From assembly GCA_021818505.1 (NCBI GenBank), contig JAKADX010000014.1, forward strand, positions 1 through 64,000: a stretch of 64,000 nt of DNA, in the 5' to 3' direction. Position 1 is the stretch's first letter, and each line of letters begins with the position of its first letter. The notes beneath the pieces are model-generated. The model was not told the origin of the DNA, made no database searches, and saw nothing but the letters and a program-made list of their open reading frames with translations. The DNA comes from Pseudomonadota bacterium (GTDB lineage Bacteria; Pseudomonadota; Alphaproteobacteria; Acetobacterales; Acetobacteraceae). The position numbers and the translations under genes are program-made. Positions 2 to 64,000 of the stretch are shown here, in pieces.

Positions 2-181
2 CTGGACGACCCGCGCCTGCTGGCGGGCTGGCACGCCCCGGAGGAGGGCTTCCGCTGGACCGACGGCGCCGCCCTGCTCGACGTGACCGGCATCCGCACC
101 CTCGAACTCCGCCTCGCCCCCATCCCCGTGCCTTACGTCGTGCCCGCGACCGTGCCCGATCCCAGACTGGCAACAGGGTGA
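2..181 (+). CDS. C-terminal end of an unidentified protein (5' part outside window)
   Basis: An open frame enters from the left edge and ends at TGA 179-181, giving the last 59 residues. Codon use is strongly GC-biased and matches the neighbouring real genes. The tail contains a W-H-x-P-E segment followed by RWTDGAALL and a Leu-rich stretch. I loosely associate this kind of tail with secreted Hint-type or carbohydrate-related proteins of Acetobacteraceae, but that is only recall and I do not assign a function. The stop lies about 15 bases before the recognisable transposase remnant, so the native 3' end may have been altered by the insertion. Confidence 0.45.
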   Translation: MDDPRLLAGWHAPEEGFRWTDGAALLDVTGIRTLELRLAPIPVPYVVPATVPDPRLATG

Positions 182-56007: not shown

Positions 56008-56934
56008 CTAGAGCAGCCGCTCGGGCTTGAGCCAACCATCCTCCAGCCGGCAAAGCCCGATCACGCGCCCCCCCGCCATCGCGCGCGCCAGCCCTCCATC
56101 GGGGTTGGCTGCCTTCGGAATCCGGCCCATCAGCGCAACCAGGCTGATCGCCTGGCCGTGTCCGAGGCCGTAGGCTTCCGCCTCCGTCAAGGCCAGCGCC
56201 GGGATGTCGGCCAGCGCGGTCGCGACGGGGAGCAGGAAGTCCGGGGAAGTCGGCGGGGTATCCTCTGCGCGCGCCAATTTGTCCAGCGGAATCGCGCTTT
56301 CCTCGGTGAAAGGTCCGACCCGCTTGCGACGCAGGGCGGCCACATGGCCCAGGCTGCCGCAGGCCAGGGCGAGGTCGCGGGCAAGGCTGCGCATATAGAC
56401 GCCCTTGCCGGACTGGACCTCGAAGATCGCGGTATCAGCGTCGGGCCGCTCGATCAGCTCGAAGCGGTCCACACGCGCCGGTCGTGCCTCCAGCGCCGGC
56501 GGCGCGCCCGCGCGCGCGAGGTCGTAGGCGCGCTCCCCGGCCACCTTCACCGCCGAATAGGCCGGCGGCACCTGCAAGATGTCGCCGCGGAACTTCTCCA
56601 GTGCCGCCGTGATGGCGGCATCGCTGGGGCGGGCGTCGGTCGTGGCCGTCACCTTGCCGTCGGCGTCATCGGTGTCGCGCGCCTCGCCAAAGCGCAGGGT
56701 GAAGCGATAGATTTTGGTGCCGTCCATCACATAGGGCACGGTCTTGGTCGCTGCACCGAACGCGACCGGCAGAACACCGGTCGCGAGCGGGTCGAGCGTG
56801 CCGCCGTGCCCGGCCTTTTGCGCGTCGAACCAGCGGCGCACGCGGTTGACCACGTCGGTGCTGGTCAGGCCCGGTGGCTTATCCACGATCAGCCAGCCAT
56901 CGAGCTTTCGGCCGCGCGGCTTGCGGTGACGCAT
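56008..56934 (-). CDS. truB: tRNA pseudouridine(55) synthase
   Basis: A 308-residue enzyme that makes pseudouridine 55 in the T-loop of most tRNAs. It has [22 protein letters not shown], the catalytic Asp in [12 protein letters not shown] (D48) and the later [14 protein letters not shown]. The C-terminal part is of the bacterial TruB_C type. ATG 56934 (AAGGA 7 bases upstream) is preferred over the adjoining GTG 56937. Confidence 0.94.
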
Positions 56935-56937
56935 CAC

Positions 56938-57355: not shown

Positions 57356-57763
57356 CTACTCGAGGTCGCGCAGCACCTCGGGCCGATGAAGCAGTTCGTC
57401 CACGTGCATCGCATAGTCCAGGCTGGTGTCGGCCTGGAACGTCAGGTCGGGCGCGTAACGCAGTCGCAGCGCGTGCGCAACCTCACGCCGCAGGAACGGT
57501 GCGGCATGGCGCAGCGCCGGCAGTTTTTCAGCCACATCCGATCGGCCGAGCCGGGTGACGAACGCGGTCGCGTGGCGCAGGTCGGGGCTGACCCGCACCT
57601 CCGTCACCGTCAGCACCACGGCGGCCAGATCAGGGTCGCGCACCTCGCCGCGCGCGAAGATTCCGGCGAGCACGTGGCGGATTTCCTCCGCCACCCGCAA
57701 TTGCCGCTGGCTCGGCGCGTGTGCCGCGTCATGCGCTGCGCCGTGGCCTCCGCCACGCTTCAC
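57356..57763 (-). CDS. rbfA: Ribosome-binding factor A
   Basis: A 135-residue 30S maturation factor. The segments [46 protein letters not shown] and [19 protein letters not shown]-like residues define the KH-like fold. The start is GTG 57763, forming a GTGA overlap with the infB stop (57760-57762). An in-frame upstream extension inside infB is rejected. Confidence 0.9.
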
Positions 57764-60432
57764 GCCGCCACCATCTCCGTCTCGTAGCACTCCACCACGT
57801 CGCCCTCCCGCAGATCGTGGAAGTTGGCGAATGACAGGCCGCACTCATACCCGCGCGCGACCTCGCGCACGTCGTCCTTGAAGCGCTTGAGCTGGGTCAG
57901 CTCTCCGGTGTGGATCACCACGTTGTCGCGCAGCAGCCGCACGCCGGCACCGCGCTTCACCACGCCCTCCGTCACCATGCAGCCGGCGACCTTGCCGACC
58001 TTGGTGATGTCGAACACGCGGCGGATCTCGGCGTAGCCCAGGAACTTCTCACGTGCCTTCGGTGCGATCTTGCCGCGCACCAGCTTCTCGATGTCATCGG
58101 AGAGGTCGTAGATGATCGAGTAGTAGCGGATATCGACGCCGTCCCGCTGTGCCAGATCGCGGGCCTGGGCCGTGGCGCGCACGTTGAACGCCACCACCAC
58201 CGCGTTCGACGCCTTGGCAAGCTGCACGTCGCTCTCGGTGATCTGGCCGACCGCGGCGAGCAGCACGCGCACCCGCACTTCGTCGTTGGCAAGCTTTGCG
58301 ACCGTCGCCTGGATCGCCTCGGCGCTGCCCTGCACGTCGGCCTTGATGACGAGCGCCACTTCCTTCTGCTCGCCGGCCTGGATGCGCGCGAGCATCTGAT
58401 CGAGCGTTCCGCGCGCCGCGGTGACCGCGCCAGCCGCCTTCTCGCGCAGCTTCCGCTGGCGGAATTCGCTGATTTCGCGCGCACGGCCTTCGTTCTCGAC
58501 GACCACGAACGGCTCCCCCGCCGTCGGCACGCCATCGAGACCGAGGATTTCCACCGGCACCGACGGCCCGGCCTCCTTCATCTGCCGGCCTTTGTCGTCC
58601 AGCATCGCGCGCACGCGGCCCCATTCGGCGCCGGCCACCACGATGTCGCCCTGCCGCAGCGTGCCACGCTGCACCAGCACCGTCGCCACCGGCCCCCGCC
58701 CGCGGTCCAGCCGGCTCTCGATCACCGAGCCTTCAGCCGAACGGTTCGGGTTGGCCCGAAGGTCGAGGATTTCCGCCTGCAGCAGGATCGCCTCCTGCAG
58801 CTTGTCCAGGCCCGTCTTCTTCGTCGCCGACACTTCGACGTCCTGGGTTTCGCCGCCCATTTCCTCGACCACGATTTCGTGGCTGAGCAGCTCCTGCCGG
58901 ACACGGGCTGGATTGGCGTCCGGTTTGTCCATCTTGTTGATCGCAACGATGATCGGCGCCTGAGCGGCTTTCGCGTGGCGGATCGCCTCGATCGTCTGCG
59001 GCATGACGCCGTCATCGGCCGCGACCACCAGCACGACGATATCGGTTACGCTGGCGCCGCGCGCGCGCATCGCCGTGAACGCGGCATGGCCCGGCGTGTC
59101 GATGAACGTGATGCGGTCGCCGCCCGCCAGTTCGACCTGATAGGCGCCGATATGCTGGGTGATGCCGCCGGCCTCGCCGGCCGCGACATCCGTCGCGCGC
59201 AGCGCGTCGAGCAGCGACGTCTTGCCGTGATCGACATGGCCCATCACCGTCACCACGGGCGGCCGCGGCACCAGGTCGGCCTCCGCGTCAGTGGCGCCGG
59301 TCAGCCCGAGTTCCACGTCGTCCTCGGACACGCGCTTGGCGCGGTGGCCGAATTCCTGCACCACGAGTTCGGCGGTGTCGGCATCGAGGCTCTGCGTGAT
59401 GGTCGCCATCACACCAAGCCGCATCAGGGTTTTGATCACGTCGGGCGCGCGGGCCGCGATGCGGTTGGCGAGTTCCTGAACGGTAATGCTTTCCGGCAGC
59501 ACCACCTCGCGCACCACCTTCACCTGGTCGGAGCGCAGCCGTTCCAGCTCGGCCTGCCGCCGCTCACGCTCGCGCTGCCGGCGAACCGAGGCCAGGCTGC
59601 GCACACGATCGTCCTCGCCCTCGATCGCCGCCTGCACATCGATCTTGGCGCCGCGGCGGCGGTCCTCGGTTCCCTTCTTCGCTGCCGGGACCTGCGGCTT
59701 GCGCGCGACCAGGCCTGGGGCAGCGCCGGCGCGACGCACCGGACGACCCTCTTCGTCCTCATCGCCCAGCCGCGGCGCTTTCAGCCGCAGCGTCTCGCCG
59801 GCCGTGGCCGGGGGCGCTGCCGGGGCAGGTCGGCCGGCCGGGCGGACCGGCCGTCGATCCTCCGCGCCACGGGCGCTCGGGCCGGCGCCGGCGGCAGCCG
59901 CCTGGGCCGCAGCCGCCGCTTCGGCGACGCGCCGCGCCTCCTGCTCGGCGCGCTCGCGGGCCTCGTCCTCGGCCCGTTGCCGCGCCTCCTCCTCGGCCGC
60001 CTTGCGTGCCTCGTCCTCGCGCCGCCGGGCTTCCTCGGCGGCGGAGAGAATGGAAATCTTCTCCTGCTCGCGCCGCTCTGCCTCCCGCCGCGCAGCCTCA
60101 CGCTGCTGCTCGGCGAGCGCGCGCTGCCGGGCCGCCAGTTCGGTCGCGGTCAGCGCCCGTCCCGCACCCGCCGGCGGGCGACCCACCGGACCGGGCGCAG
60201 GGCGTGTCGCCGCCGAAGGAGTGCCGGCCGCGGCGCTCGGCAAGGCAGCGCCGGCACCGCCAGGGCCAGGGGCGCGCTTCTTGCGCACCTCGACCTGCAC
60301 GACCTTGGAGCGGCCGTGACTGAAACTCTGTCGGACGGACCCGGCATCCACGGTCCGGCCCAGCTCCATGCGACCCGTCGGCCGCAGCGACAGCCGGCCC
60401 TTGCCCGCGTCCTGATCGTTGCCTTCGCTCAT
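57760..60432 (-). CDS. infB: Translation initiation factor IF-2
   Basis: An 890-residue GTPase that brings fMet-tRNA to the 30S subunit. A long N-terminal Ala/Arg/Glu-rich region ([21 protein letters not shown] type repeats, about 100-250) is followed by an IF2_N segment ([22 protein letters not shown]) and the G domain with [23 protein letters not shown] and NKMDKP. Domains II to IV end near the C-terminus. It starts in an ATGA overlap with the ylxR gene. Confidence 0.97.
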
Positions 60433-61127
60433 CTACCCGCCTGTACCTTGCCTTCGTTCCGCCCGGACCTGCCGGTCGGCCTCCCACCGGCCGGAGGGGT
60501 TCGCAACCCGTCCAGCCGCTCCGCATCCTCGCCGATCCGCACCGCCAGCCGTCCCGCCGCAACCGCGACATGCACGGCGTGGTCCCGCCCGAACACACCG
60601 CCCAGGGCGGCGCCGTCGAGCGGCGTCACCACAGTCCCCTGCCAGCCCCGCAGCAGGCGCGCCCGCTCGTCGGGGCTGCCGTCCGCGGCCTGCACGATCA
60701 GCGCCGCCCGGCCCGTCTCCAGCCACTCCCGCACCTTGGTGAACCCGGCAACCGCCTGCCCGGCACGCCGGGCGAGACCCAGTTGCTCGCCAATCCGTCG
60801 CGCCAACGCCCTCTGCAACCCGGACAGGAGATCGGGAGACACCGTCACCGGACCGCGCGCCGCCCTGGCGAATCCGCCCCGTGTGCGAGCGGTTTCTACC
60901 ACATCGCCAAGCGCACTCAACCAGATTCCCCGCCCGGGCAGCCGTGCACCCAGGTCGGGCACCACTGCGCCGTCCGGCGCGATAACGAACCGAATCATCC
61001 GCTCCTTCGGCAGCCGCGCGCGTGTTACGGCGCAGCGCCGCAAAGGCCCAGTCTGCGGCTCATCGCCCTCTTCGTCTCCGGATGCAATCGGTGCGTCAGT
61101 CGTGGCCTGCCTCCTCCGACCCGCCAT
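60429..61127 (-). CDS. YlxR (DUF448) / L7Ae-like fusion RNA-binding protein
   Basis: A 232-residue protein joining two modules normally encoded separately in Firmicutes. The N-terminal YlxR domain is about 25-95 ([31 protein letters not shown]). The C-terminal YlxQ/L7Ae-like domain is about 110-180 ([32 protein letters not shown]), followed by a variable tail. It is common in alphaproteobacterial nusA operons. It probably binds RNA; the role is unclear. ATG 61127 overlaps the end of nusA by 32 nt; it is the first plausible start. Confidence 0.82.
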
Positions 61128-62649
61128 GCGATGCGGCGGCCGCCTCACCCCCATCGGCAAACCAGTGTGCGCGCGCGGCCATGATGATCTCGTTGGCCGT
61201 GGCCTCGTCCATGTTGGCGGCGCCGATGATCTCGACAAGCTCGTCGGAGGCAAGATCGGCCAGATCGTCGAGCGTCCTGACGCCCTTCTCGCCCAGCGCG
61301 ACCAGCATCGCCGGCGTCAGCGCCTCGATCGCGGCCACTTCATCCGTCACGCCCAACGCCGCGCGTCGCTCGGTCAGTTCATTGTCGCGGCGGATCAGGA
61401 ACTGCTCGGCGCGGCGGATCAATTCATCGGCCACCTGCTCGTCGAAACCCTCGATGGACGCCAGTTCGTCGCGGGGCGTGAACGCCAGCTCCTCGATGCT
61501 GTTGAAGCCTTCCGTCACCAGCAGGCCGGCGATCACGTCGTCCACGTCAAGCGCCTCAACGAACAGCCCGGTGCGGCGGCGGAACTCCTCCTGTCGGCGC
61601 TCGCTCTCCTCGGCTTCGGTCAGGATGTCGATGTCCCAGCGGGTCAGCTGGCTCGCCAGACGCACATTCTGACCGCGCCGTCCGATCGCAAGCGAGAGCT
61701 GGTCGTCCGGCACCACCACCTCGCAGCGCCCACCCTCCTCGTCCATCACCACCTTGGTCACCTCGGCGGGTGCCAGCGCATTGACCACGAACGTCGCGGT
61801 GTTGGCGGACCAGGGGATGATGTCGATCTTCTCGCCCTGGAGTTCCTGCACCACCGCCTGCACGCGAGAGCCGCGCATACCGACGCACGCGCCAACTGGG
61901 TCGATCGACGAATCGCGCGAAATCACCGCCATCTTTGCGCGGCTGCCGGGATCGCGGGCGACCGCCTTGATCTCGATGATGCCGTCGTAGATCTCGGGCA
62001 CCTCCTGCGCGAACAGCTTGGCCAGGAAGCCGGGATGCGTGCGGCTGAGGAAGATCTGCGGCCCGCGGGGTTCCTCGCGCACGTCGTAGATATAGGCGCG
62101 GACACGGTCGCCGTTGCGGAAGCTCTCGCGCGGGATCAGCTCGTCGCGGCGCAGCAGCGCCTCGGCGCGGCCGATCTCCACCATCAGGTTGCCGTACTCG
62201 GTGCGCTTGACCACGCCGTTGATGATCTCGCCCACGCGGTCCTTGAACTCATCGTACTGCTGCGCACGCTCGTATTCGCGCACGCCCTGCACGATCACCT
62301 GCTTGGCGGTCTGTGCGGCGATGCGGCCGAAATCGATCGGCGGCAGCGGATCGACCAGAAACTCGCCGACCTTGATGTCGGGCTTGAACTTGCGCGCGAT
62401 GTGAATGGGGATCTGCGTCTCTTCGTTCTCCACCGTCTCCACCGCCTCCGTCCAGCGGGAAAGCCGGACTTCGCCGGTCTTGCGGTCGATGGTGGCGCGG
62501 ATGTCCTTCTCGTGGCCGTATTTCGCGCGCCCGGCCTTCTGGTACGCCTTCTCTAGGACGTCGAGGACCTTTTCCCGGTCGAGCGACTTCTCGCGCGCAA
62601 CGGCATCGGCCACCAGCAGCAGCTCGGGGCGGGAGATCGCGGTATCCAT
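61096..62649 (-). CDS. nusA: Transcription termination/antitermination factor NusA
   Basis: A 517-residue RNA polymerase-associated factor. It has a NusA N-terminal domain (RPELLLVADAVAREKSLDREKVLDVLE), S1 (about 135-200), two KH domains (VGACVGMRGSRVQAVVQEL and LAIGRRGQNVRLASQL) and acidic C-terminal repeats (IEGFDEQVADELIRRAE, GVRTLDDLADLASDELVEI). It affects pausing, termination and antitermination, and in E. coli regulates its own operon. It follows rimP by 12 bp. GAGAGG precedes the ATG. Confidence 0.97.
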   Translation of the reverse strand: MDTAISRPELLLVADAVAREKSLDREKVLDVLEKAYQKAGRAKYGHEKDIRATIDRKTGEVRLSRWTEAVETVENEETQIPIHIARKFKPDIKVGEFLVDPLPPIDFGRIAAQTAKQVIVQGVREYERAQQYDEFKDRVGEIINGVVKRTEYGNLMVEIGRAEALLRRDELIPRESFRNGDRVRAYIYDVREEPRGPQIFLSRTHPGFLAKLFAQEVPEIYDGIIEIKAVARDPGSRAKMAVISRDSSIDPVGACVGMRGSRVQAVVQELQGEKIDIIPWSANTATFVVNALAPAEVTKVVMDEEGGRCEVVVPDDQLSLAIGRRGQNVRLASQLTRWDIDILTEAEESERRQEEFRRRTGLFVEALDVDDVIAGLLVTEGFNSIEELAFTPRDELASIEGFDEQVADELIRRAEQFLIRRDNELTERRAALGVTDEVAAIEALTPAMLVALGEKGVRTLDDLADLASDELVEIIGAANMDEATANEIIMAARAHWFADGGEAAAASHGGSEEAGHD

Positions 62650-62661
62650 CGGGGAAGCCTC

Positions 62662-63183
62662 TCAGTTGGTCCGGGTTGGGGTTGCCGTGGCTTCGATCAG
62701 GGCGTCAGTGAGCACCAGGCGGGCACGGCGCAGATCGGCGAGCGGCAGTGCGACCTCGTTACCATCGTCCAGCCGCAGCCGGGCGTACTGCGCGTCGGCA
62801 CCAAGCACGACACCGCTGAACCGGCGCCGCCCCGCCATGGGCGGATCGAGTTCGACCCGCGCCAGGTGACCAGCGAAGCGGTTCCAGTCCTTGACACGTG
62901 TCAACGGCCGGTCAATGCCCGGCGAGCTGACCTCCAGCGTCCATTCCCCAGACATCGGATCGGCCACGTCGATCACGGCGCCGAGGGCGCGGCTGATATG
63001 CTCGCAGTCCTCCACCGTCATGGGCGCCGCGTCGGCGCGGTCGGCCATGATCTGCACCGTCGGACGGTCCCGGCCGGAGACGGCGACGCGGACCAGTTCA
63101 TAGCCCATGCCTTCCAGCGTGGGCGTGACGATCTCCGCAAGACGGGCCTCTAGCCCGGTATGACGCGGTTGGTCAGGGTTCAA
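62662..63183 (-). CDS. rimP: Ribosome maturation factor RimP
   Basis: A 173-residue 30S maturation factor, first gene of the nusA operon. It has [53 protein letters not shown] and the C-terminal SH3-like [23 protein letters not shown]. No ATG or GTG lies at the homologous N-terminus; the start is a TTG at 63183, placed directly at the end of the U tract of a terminator-like hairpin, with no Shine-Dalgarno sequence. The arrangement suggests regulated initiation. Confidence 0.93.
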
Positions 63184-63248
63184 AACAAAAAAGGCGGCCC
63201 TTTCGGGGCCACCCTCCGTGATCGGTCGGAAGATGTTTGATTGTCCAT
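63180..63248 (-). CDS. Candidate 22-residue leader peptide upstream of rimP
   Basis: ATG 63248 opens a frame of 22 codons ([20 protein letters not shown], then LF) that reads through the whole terminator hairpin and U tract. Its TGA (63182-63180) overlaps the rimP TTG as TTGA, the kind of overlap seen at coupled starts. The Lys-Gly-Pro-Pro part is encoded by the hairpin itself. Against it: no clear ribosome-binding site, and a promoter-like -10 box (63249-63254) directly before the ATG would start transcripts inside the frame. Confidence 0.3.
63187..63213 (-). terminator. Intrinsic-terminator-like hairpin in the rimP leader
   Basis: On the minus strand, GGxGGCCC pairs with GGGCCxCC (core 63206-63210 with 63196-63200, plus two outer pairs around one mismatch), loop CGAAA. 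It is followed by six T, G and four T ending one base before the rimP coding region. It has all features of a Rho-independent terminator, and sits between the probable promoter and the first gene, so attenuation is likely. Confidence 0.7.
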
Positions 63249-63277
63249 CAGATAGGCGATCCCAGGGCGCGGCGCAA
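63249..63277 (-). promoter_or_regulatory. Promoter candidate for the rimP-nusA operon
   Basis: On the minus strand TTGCGC (63272-63277) and TATCTG (63249-63254) are separated by 17 bp. Transcription would begin near 63241, giving a leader of about 55-60 nt that folds into the terminator-like hairpin just before the TTG start of rimP. Confidence 0.5.
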
Positions 63278-63387
63278 GGGCAGGCAACGGCGCGCCCGAA
63301 GGCCGTATGAAACCACGCCTGCCTGATCGGACTTAATCAGCCGCCGGTGCGCCGCCACATACGGCAGCAGCGCCATGGAGCAAGCAC

Positions 63388-63915
63388 ATGTCGGCAGGAC
63401 ACCGGACCCTGTGGATCGTCATCGCTGACGGCGGACACGCCCGCGTCGTCGTCGCCAAGGACCATCCTGGCCAGTTTGAGACGGACTGGGCGGTCGATTC
63501 GCCGGACGCCCATCATGCGGGGCGCGATCTCGTCAGCGACCGGCCGGGGCGCGTCTTCTCCAGTGCGCGTCGCCCGGGCCGGGCCGGGGGCGGCCTCGCC
63601 TCGGGCCGGGGCACGGAGGGTACGGCCGTGGCGCGCCATGCCCTGGTGCCGCCCAGCGATCCGCGTGAGGAAGCCAAGCGCAGCTTCGCGGAGCTGCTGG
63701 CGCAGTTTCTGGATGACGAAGCCGGGCGCGGCGCGTTCGACGAGCTGGTGCTGGTTGCGCCGGGCCATGTCATGCACGACCTGCGCGCGCGCCTCGGTCG
63801 GCTGGCGAACGAACGCGTGACCGGAACGCTGCTCAAGGACCTGACGGCGATCCCCGACCGCGACCTGTCGCAGCATCTGGCGACGTGGTGGCGTCCGCCG
63901 CGGCAGGGCGACTGA
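63388..63915 (+). CDS. Host attachment family protein (baeRF-like fold)
   Basis: A 175-residue protein: LWIVIADGGHARVVVA at the N-terminus, then the DSPDAHHAGRDLVSDRPGR segment, a basic Gly-rich stretch and LAQFLDDEAGRGAFDELVLVAPGHVMHDLRARL. This matches the 'protein required for attachment to host cells' family, which is related to archaeal/eukaryal eRF1 domain 2-like proteins and of uncertain function. The name derives from one plant-associated bacterium and should not be taken as evidence of host interaction. GGAG precedes the ATG. It is divergent from rimP. Confidence 0.85.
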   Translation: MSAGHRTLWIVIADGGHARVVVAKDHPGQFETDWAVDSPDAHHAGRDLVSDRPGRVFSSARRPGRAGGGLASGRGTEGTAVARHALVPPSDPREEAKRSFAELLAQFLDDEAGRGAFDELVLVAPGHVMHDLRARLGRLANERVTGTLLKDLTAIPDRDLSQHLATWWRPPRQGD

Positions 63916-63926
63916 TCCGCCGCACC

Positions 63927-64000
63927 TCATCGGCGGCACAGGCACCAGAACAGCAGCTTGCGCCCCGCCTGCGCCGCTTTCGCCTCATACCGCGTCGCCG
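63927..64000 (-). CDS. trmB: tRNA (guanine-N7)-methyltransferase, C-terminal end (5' part outside window)
   Basis: The last 23 residues enter from the right edge on the minus strand: TRYEAKAAQAGRKLLFWCLCRR, ending at TGA 63929-63927. The TRYE-x-KA-x-x-AGR pattern is the typical C-terminus of TrmB, which makes m7G46 in tRNA. Its place upstream of rimP-nusA is the usual one in Rhodospirillales, though here the host-attachment gene lies between on the opposite strand. Confidence 0.7.
   Translation of the reverse strand, partial: ATRYEAKAAQAGRKLLFWCLCRR

Follow-up and report, generated by a model that had tools for sequence, protein, structure and literature searches.

The rimP-leader was reported in 2010 by Naville and Gautheret, who describe it as more ubiquitous than any other transcription attenuator and suggest NusA as the factor acting on it (PMC2965389). 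According to that paper, its general form carries a GGGc...gCCC motif and lies 4–130 nt from the gene, and no antiterminator was seen. An example of regulation by NusA is the autoregulation of this protein in Bacillus subtilis, where NusA stimulates termination in its own 5′ leader, as stated in a review on the work of Mondal from 2016 (PMC12288461). In Escherichia coli, the terminators t1 and t2 are placed upstream of rimP by one report (PMC6511841), and another describes that fusions to the rimP 5′ UTR were expressed less in a Rho mutant (PMC7815308), an effect which an intrinsic terminator alone leaves unexplained. A hairpin that shortens the spacing between the Shine–Dalgarno (SD) sequence and the start codon is known from phage T4, where the spacing decreases from 27 to 11 nt in gene 25 and from 22 to 5 nt in gene 38, according to PMC3014915.

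The window analyzed here is a stretch of 64,000 nt from a genome of the Acetobacteraceae, which holds on its minus strand a hairpin and a U tract running into the start codon of rimP. The terminator lies directly upstream of the rimP-nusA-infB genes, its 5′ arm is G-rich and its 3′ arm C-rich, a U stretch follows, and the distance to the gene is short, which agrees in position and anatomy with the rimP-leader as the source outlines it. The stem, however, has the form GGUGGCC...GGCCGCC in the family, and strict GGGC...GCCC is absent from all 96 family loci, so the site is named the Acetobacteraceae variant of the rimP-leader attenuator. Unlike the general form given in that source, the family leader has its start codon inside the U tract, an SD-like 5′ arm and a conserved complementary 5′ element. 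The shortest distance reported for the rimP-leader, 4 nt, may already include such fused cases (PMC2965389). The E. coli locus (L138) resembles the window in having a terminator-like GGGCTTTAGGCCC-T7 upstream of rimP, which also starts there at TTG; it differs in that GGGGGTGGG follows the hairpin just 5′ of the TTG at an ordinary SD spacing, whereas the like run of the window lies inside the terminator arm. The same feedback as in the B. subtilis nusA leader would apply here; the phylum is distant, and no test of it in Acetobacteraceae was found in the literature searched.

An earlier note on this DNA knew of no description of such a site in Acetobacteraceae. This holds for the family, for which none was found, and does not hold for the kind of attenuator, which has been known since 2010. 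The literature search found the leader undescribed by name in Acetobacteraceae or Alphaproteobacteria; species of these groups may stand in the supplementary rimP-leader list of PMC2965389, and the word "rimP" is absent from the main text of the RNA-seq paper on Gluconobacter oxydans (PMC5756330). As far as the literature searched goes, the family architecture, i.e., a start fused to the terminator, an SD-like arm and a complementary 5′ element, is new.

Sampling of the rimP Loci

The rimP loci were gathered from relatives and genome records, with 80 of 331 relatives used. Removal of 7 copies and 7 loci of other families from the 110 loci leaves 96 distinct Acetobacteraceae loci, and in the RimP tree a 100/99 branch separates all 96 from two outgroup rows. 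Outside the family, 72 of the 127 rimP-bearing genomes were examined; these exclude L111, which belongs to the family, and L175, which gave no match. A protein search finds rimP in 190 of 200 family genomes. Three assemblies (G084, G132 and G154) have two rimP matches each, reflecting either contamination or a second copy. A loose hairpin pattern matches in at least 173 of the 200 family genomes; some of the matches listed lie away from rimP, a reversed control pattern matches many genomes too, and this search is not used for the rimP counts. The Rfam family RF01770 (rimP) exceeds its gathering score in 0 of 40 relatives, has no match at E ≤ 1 in the genome of the window, and none in window positions 60000–64000. 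A weak match to snoZ206 (62151–62263, E 0.17) is below the cut-off and was taken as chance.

The Operon, Its Promoter and the Predicted Leader RNA

The gene order by Pfam is RimP, NusA, YlxR, IF2, RbfA, TruB, S15 and PNPase. On the minus strand, rimP (62662–63183, with the RimP_N and RimP C-terminal SH3 domains) is followed by nusA (61096–62649, NusA domains), a ylxR-containing frame of uncertain start (60429–61253), infB encoding IF2 (57760–60432), rbfA, the start of which is also uncertain (57356–57844), and truB (56008–56937). The encoding of NusA in the operon behind the rimP terminator is one of the properties of a NusA-dependent autoregulatory attenuator. The neighbor on the plus strand (63388–63915) is divergent, is Host_attach or release-factor-like (baeRF family 12), and has its upstream region in common with the rimP promoter.

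The promoter read previously as TTGCGC-17 bp-TATCTG is present with identical letters on the minus strand, the −35 element at 63277–63272 and the −10 element at 63254–63249. Its pattern is conserved in the family: CTTG[CA]-17..20-TA occurs in the 73 nt upstream that were searched in 76 of the 96 Acetobacteraceae rimP loci, compared with 0.9 loci on average and at most 4 in 200 mononucleotide shuffles. By a rule of thumb applied to the −10 box, the RNA would start near 63242 and, with an end at 63187–63184, is predicted to be 56–59 nt long; the earlier note had suggested an abortive RNA of about 55 nt. The fold of the rimP leader is better than that of its shuffles, of which 3 in 200 do as well (z −2.53), and the folding signal drops to z −1.53 (16 of 200 as good) when 34 nt of rimP are included. 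A 22-codon minus-strand frame (63180–63248) crosses the hairpin, and its TGA overlaps the rimP TTG. Leader-peptide attenuation by this frame was rejected, as its ATG (63248) lies ahead of where the RNA is predicted to start, and inspection by eye shows the aligned relatives to be without the frame.

The Terminator-Like Hairpin and the Probable Start Codon in the U Tract

The hairpin, denoted P2 (GGUGGCCCCGAAAGGGCCGCC, 63213–63193, minus strand), continues into the U tract T6-G-T4 at 63192–63182, in which T6 occupies 63192–63187, G 63186 and T4 63185–63182. This is letter for letter the GGTGGCCCCGAAAGGGCCGCC at 63213–63193 and the tract described before. A comparison of the upstream region across Acetobacteraceae, which had been proposed as a check, finds the hairpin in 96 of 96 distinct loci, 95 of them with the strict pattern GGTGG-loop-GGCC[GA]CC and one (L023) with a variant; the commonest family tail is exactly TTTTTTGTTTTG (31 of 96). 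In the alignment of 82 family loci, GGTGGCC and most of GGCCGCC are invariant, with the U tract next, and 574 of 574 cells of the P2 stem are paired. Such a nearly invariant stem offers no variation from which covariation within the 82 aligned loci could be scored. Across the rest of the class, a terminator precedes rimP in 63 of the 72 loci examined, 49 of these 63 have the GGGC...GCCC stem (compared with 0 of 96 family loci in its strict form), and one stem position, scored in 54 of the 63, holds T-A in 26, T-G in 21, C-G in 4 and A-T in 3, which includes compensatory change. By a simple terminator scan, the last 10 kb of the window contain 4 sites versus 4.3 in shuffles. The site is thus unremarkable by count, and the case for a terminator rests on conservation. 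The conserved promoter, hairpin, U tract and position back the candidate attenuator of the rimP-nusA operon put forward by the earlier note; a working intrinsic attenuator at the rimP leader is highly likely.

The TTG at 63183–63181 overlaps the U tract, the final two T of which are the first two letters of the rimP start codon, in line with the earlier observation that the two touch. It is the first ATG, GTG or TTG of its open frame, and no other precedes the conserved core. An in-frame start at +7 to +13 after the hairpin, with a frame open to the conserved core, is found in 83 of the 96 family loci (80 TTG, 2 ATG and 1 GTG). Any start codon within this interval occurs in 92 family loci, 84 of which have one in the rimP frame, and the wider interval of +3 to +13 contains an in-frame start in 85 of 96. 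Outside the family, where the hairpin end is defined slightly differently, an in-frame start lies within 3–13 nt of the hairpin in 11 of 72 loci as compared with these 85 of 96, and the candidate starts are mostly located 20–100 nt downstream of the terminator. In 40 family loci, no start other than the near one at +3 to +13 lies 3′ of the hairpin, and in 20 it is the sole start of the open frame in a search reaching 200 nt upstream. Codons 2–12 after the TTG, compared in 43 equally long loci, have mean identities of 0.70, 0.70 and 0.36 by codon position, which is a coding pattern; codons 2–3 show little of it. On the strength of the in-frame near starts and of this pattern downstream of the TTG, the rimP start codon is very probably situated where the U tract ends. 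In 33 of the 84 near-start loci, the hairpin contains a stop codon, often the TAA of a TTAAC loop, that shares the frame of the rimP start and closes it just ahead of the start.

The SD-Like G-Run and Its Complementary 5′ Element

The statement of the earlier note that no SD fits between the hairpin and the start is true of the usual place (−16 to −4), which gives −1.5 kcal/mol in the window, but overlooked that the 5′ arm of the hairpin itself contains a run resembling an SD. This G-run (CGGAGGGU, 63218–63211, minus strand) is the 3′ strand of the pairing P1 described below; it also forms the lower part of the terminator's 5′ arm and is SD-like, with −10.2 kcal/mol against the anti-SD. The anti-SD used for scoring is what we take to be the 3′ end of the 16S rRNA; a search for this end found no match in the genome of the window (18 letters) and one in 20 genomes (16 letters), from which such stretches may be missing. 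At a threshold of −4.5 kcal/mol, an SD at the usual place is found in 0 of the 84 loci with an in-frame near start codon. All 84 carry the SD-like run within the terminator's 5′ arm, 25–31 nt upstream of the start, with a mean of −12.7 and a weakest value of −9.5 kcal/mol, and the arrangement of a distant SD, a hairpin between and an empty usual place is thus present, by the assumed anti-SD, in 84 of 84. The same place in other Alphaproteobacteria has a mean of −7.8 kcal/mol (n = 51), and 19 of the 51 reach −8 or better.

A long SD-start spacing with a hairpin between is shared with genes 25 and 38 of T4; the 25–31 nt of the family would be reduced to about 12 in the window by counting. Unlike the family leader, these two are phage genes, and to our knowledge their hairpin is not a transcription terminator. 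In the window, the terminator is retained in the predicted minimum-energy fold and the G-run is paired within it, with an unpaired probability of 0.1 or less, so that its use as an SD needs unfolding. In G. oxydans, aGGAg lies 3–14 nt upstream in 94% of 973 leaders and TTG makes up 3% of starts (PMC5756330), and a TTG without an SD would therefore be unusual. It is possible, and proposed here tentatively, that the terminator arm serves as the SD of rimP.

Close to where the RNA is predicted to begin, the element AUCUUCCG (63234–63227, minus strand) forms the 5′ strand of P1 and pairs with CGGAGGGU (63218–63211) in 8 of 8 positions. In the family, 576 of 656 P1 cells are paired (88%), compared with 50–64% when either strand is slid by 1–3, and 62 of the 82 aligned loci have 7 or 8 pairs. 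The mean duplex energy is −8.86 versus −7.53 in dinucleotide shuffles, none of 50 being as low. When the 3′ strands are dealt among the loci, the observed value is reached in 186 of 2000 deals, and swaps of strands leave the mean duplex energy unchanged, with 49 of 100 as good. P1 is a conserved, register-specific complementarity without covariation. P1 and the terminator compete for GGU: fold A of the window, with 4 P1 pairs and a 9-pair hairpin, has −22.3 kcal/mol, and fold B, with 8 P1 pairs and a 5-pair upper hairpin, has −19.7 kcal/mol, which places them at most 2.6 kcal/mol apart.

Tandem Copies and Lost U Tracts

Two kinds of natural variants offer contrasts in the leader. Three genomes of one genus (L179–L181) have two tandem hairpin copies upstream of rimP, located in 0-based positions at 154–172 and 363–382 in L179, from 185 and 389 in L180 (reverse), and from 116 and 302 in L181. 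In all three, the copy adjoining rimP has a strong G-run (−12.9 to −13.1 kcal/mol), whereas the outer copy, about 190–210 nt upstream, has an A-run (−7.1 kcal/mol) and no adjoining rimP start. Two other stretches examined beside these have a single hairpin copy each. As all three belong to one genus, the tandem copies are perhaps one event.

The second kind is found among the five loci with GAGGUGG (L005, L020, L046, L065 and L073), in which all seven stem pairs are intact. A T-run of 3 or less in the tail occurs in four of them (L005, L020, L046 and L073) and in 1 of the 91 others, with a Fisher p of 7e-6 that ignores kinship; on the RimP tree, GAGGUGG requires 4 changes, at least 2 of which are forced by well-supported branches, the bootstrap not being settled. 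In L005, L020, L046 and L073, the hairpin and the SD-like run are kept and intrinsic termination has probably been lost. The SD-like runs of the five loci have −14.4, −14.5, −13.8, −10.6 and −10.4, with a median of −13.6 in the other 91. The idea of a better SD where the U tract is lost was rejected, as three of the five runs exceed the median of the other loci slightly in strength and two fall below it.

Proposed Mechanism and Alternative Explanations

In the proposed mechanism, a sigma-70-type promoter would give a leader about 57 nt long, with the intrinsic-terminator-like hairpin and the U tract at its end. RNA polymerase would either stop in the U tract, releasing a short abortive RNA, or read through into rimP-nusA-ylxR-infB-rbfA-truB. 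The choice between stopping and read-through would most likely be tuned by NusA as in B. subtilis, resulting in negative feedback; the chances that NusA is the main regulator of the rimP attenuator are about even. In the read-through mRNA, the G-run may act as a ribosome docking site, with the upper hairpin folding the spacer away and leaving the UUG about 12 nt downstream, comparable to T4 gene 25. The 5′ element, when paired with the G-run, could both hide the SD and shorten the terminator. The whole reading, i.e., a rimP-leader attenuator tuned by NusA in which an antiterminator-like stem, the terminator and a hairpin-bridged ribosome site all use one G-run, is drawn from sequence comparison and is evenly poised between right and wrong.

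Its main competitor is a plain rimP-leader attenuator, where the hairpin only terminates under the tuning of NusA, the G-run is nothing other than the G-rich arm, and the UUG is translated without an SD through the U-rich stretch and S1. G.U pairs are possible between the G-run and the U tract, which extends the stem to 12 pairs, and the 5′ arm of the general motif is already known to be G-rich from the description of its form (PMC2965389). The empty usual SD place in all 84 near-start loci agrees with this explanation as well. So does the persistence of the G-run at −10.2 to −14.5 in those 11 of the 96 family loci for which the closest start lies elsewhere, and so does the lack of a link between the run and start proximity outside the family, where near-start loci are not stronger (10 vs. 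41, p 0.74). A hairpin that only terminates would, however, leave little reason for the tandem copies to differ exactly at the G-run, A-run in the far copy and G-run in the one adjoining the start, or for the hairpin and the SD-like run to persist where the U tract is lost, and the SD-less TTG that it requires would be unusual by the leader figures for G. oxydans (PMC5756330). This explanation is plausible, though somewhat doubtful.

Two further explanations concern the RNA itself and the site. The short terminated RNA could be the main product, acting in trans as a small RNA through the anti-SD-like CUUCC/CUCC of its 5′ element. A pyrimidine-rich 5′ element followed by a terminator is the typical anatomy of a small RNA, and here a conserved element of this type precedes the terminator in a predicted RNA of 56–59 nt; the element is, however, complementary in register to the G-run of its own leader, so its conservation is explicable in cis, and a main role in trans is very unlikely. 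Still less credible is a site without a regulatory role, whether it matches by chance or simply terminates transcription coming from upstream. Apart from the chance-level result of the regional terminator scan, this account faces a conserved promoter just upstream of the hairpin, a divergent upstream neighbor (63388–63915, plus strand), and a position and sequence of the hairpin that are nearly invariant across the family. The reading with a shared G-run can be carried further to a three-way switch, in which the G-run would pair with the 5′ element, with the 3′ arm of the terminator or with the 3′ end of the 16S rRNA, and free 30S subunits would drive read-through while NusA would favor termination. 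Such a switch is improbable.

Implications for the Operon

The tandem copies and the lost U tracts are natural variants that make the idea of a shared arm directly testable. The products of the operon are the transcription factor NusA and factors for the assembly of the small subunit and the start of translation. If the three-way switch were true, the lower terminator stem would be blocked by a 30S subunit bound to the G-run while the start codon is yet to be transcribed, and SD pairing would let the operon of RimP, RbfA and IF2 sense free 30S subunits directly, with no leader peptide involved. If the terminator arm is the ribosome site, one short sequence would couple the transcriptional read-through of the operon with its translation start.
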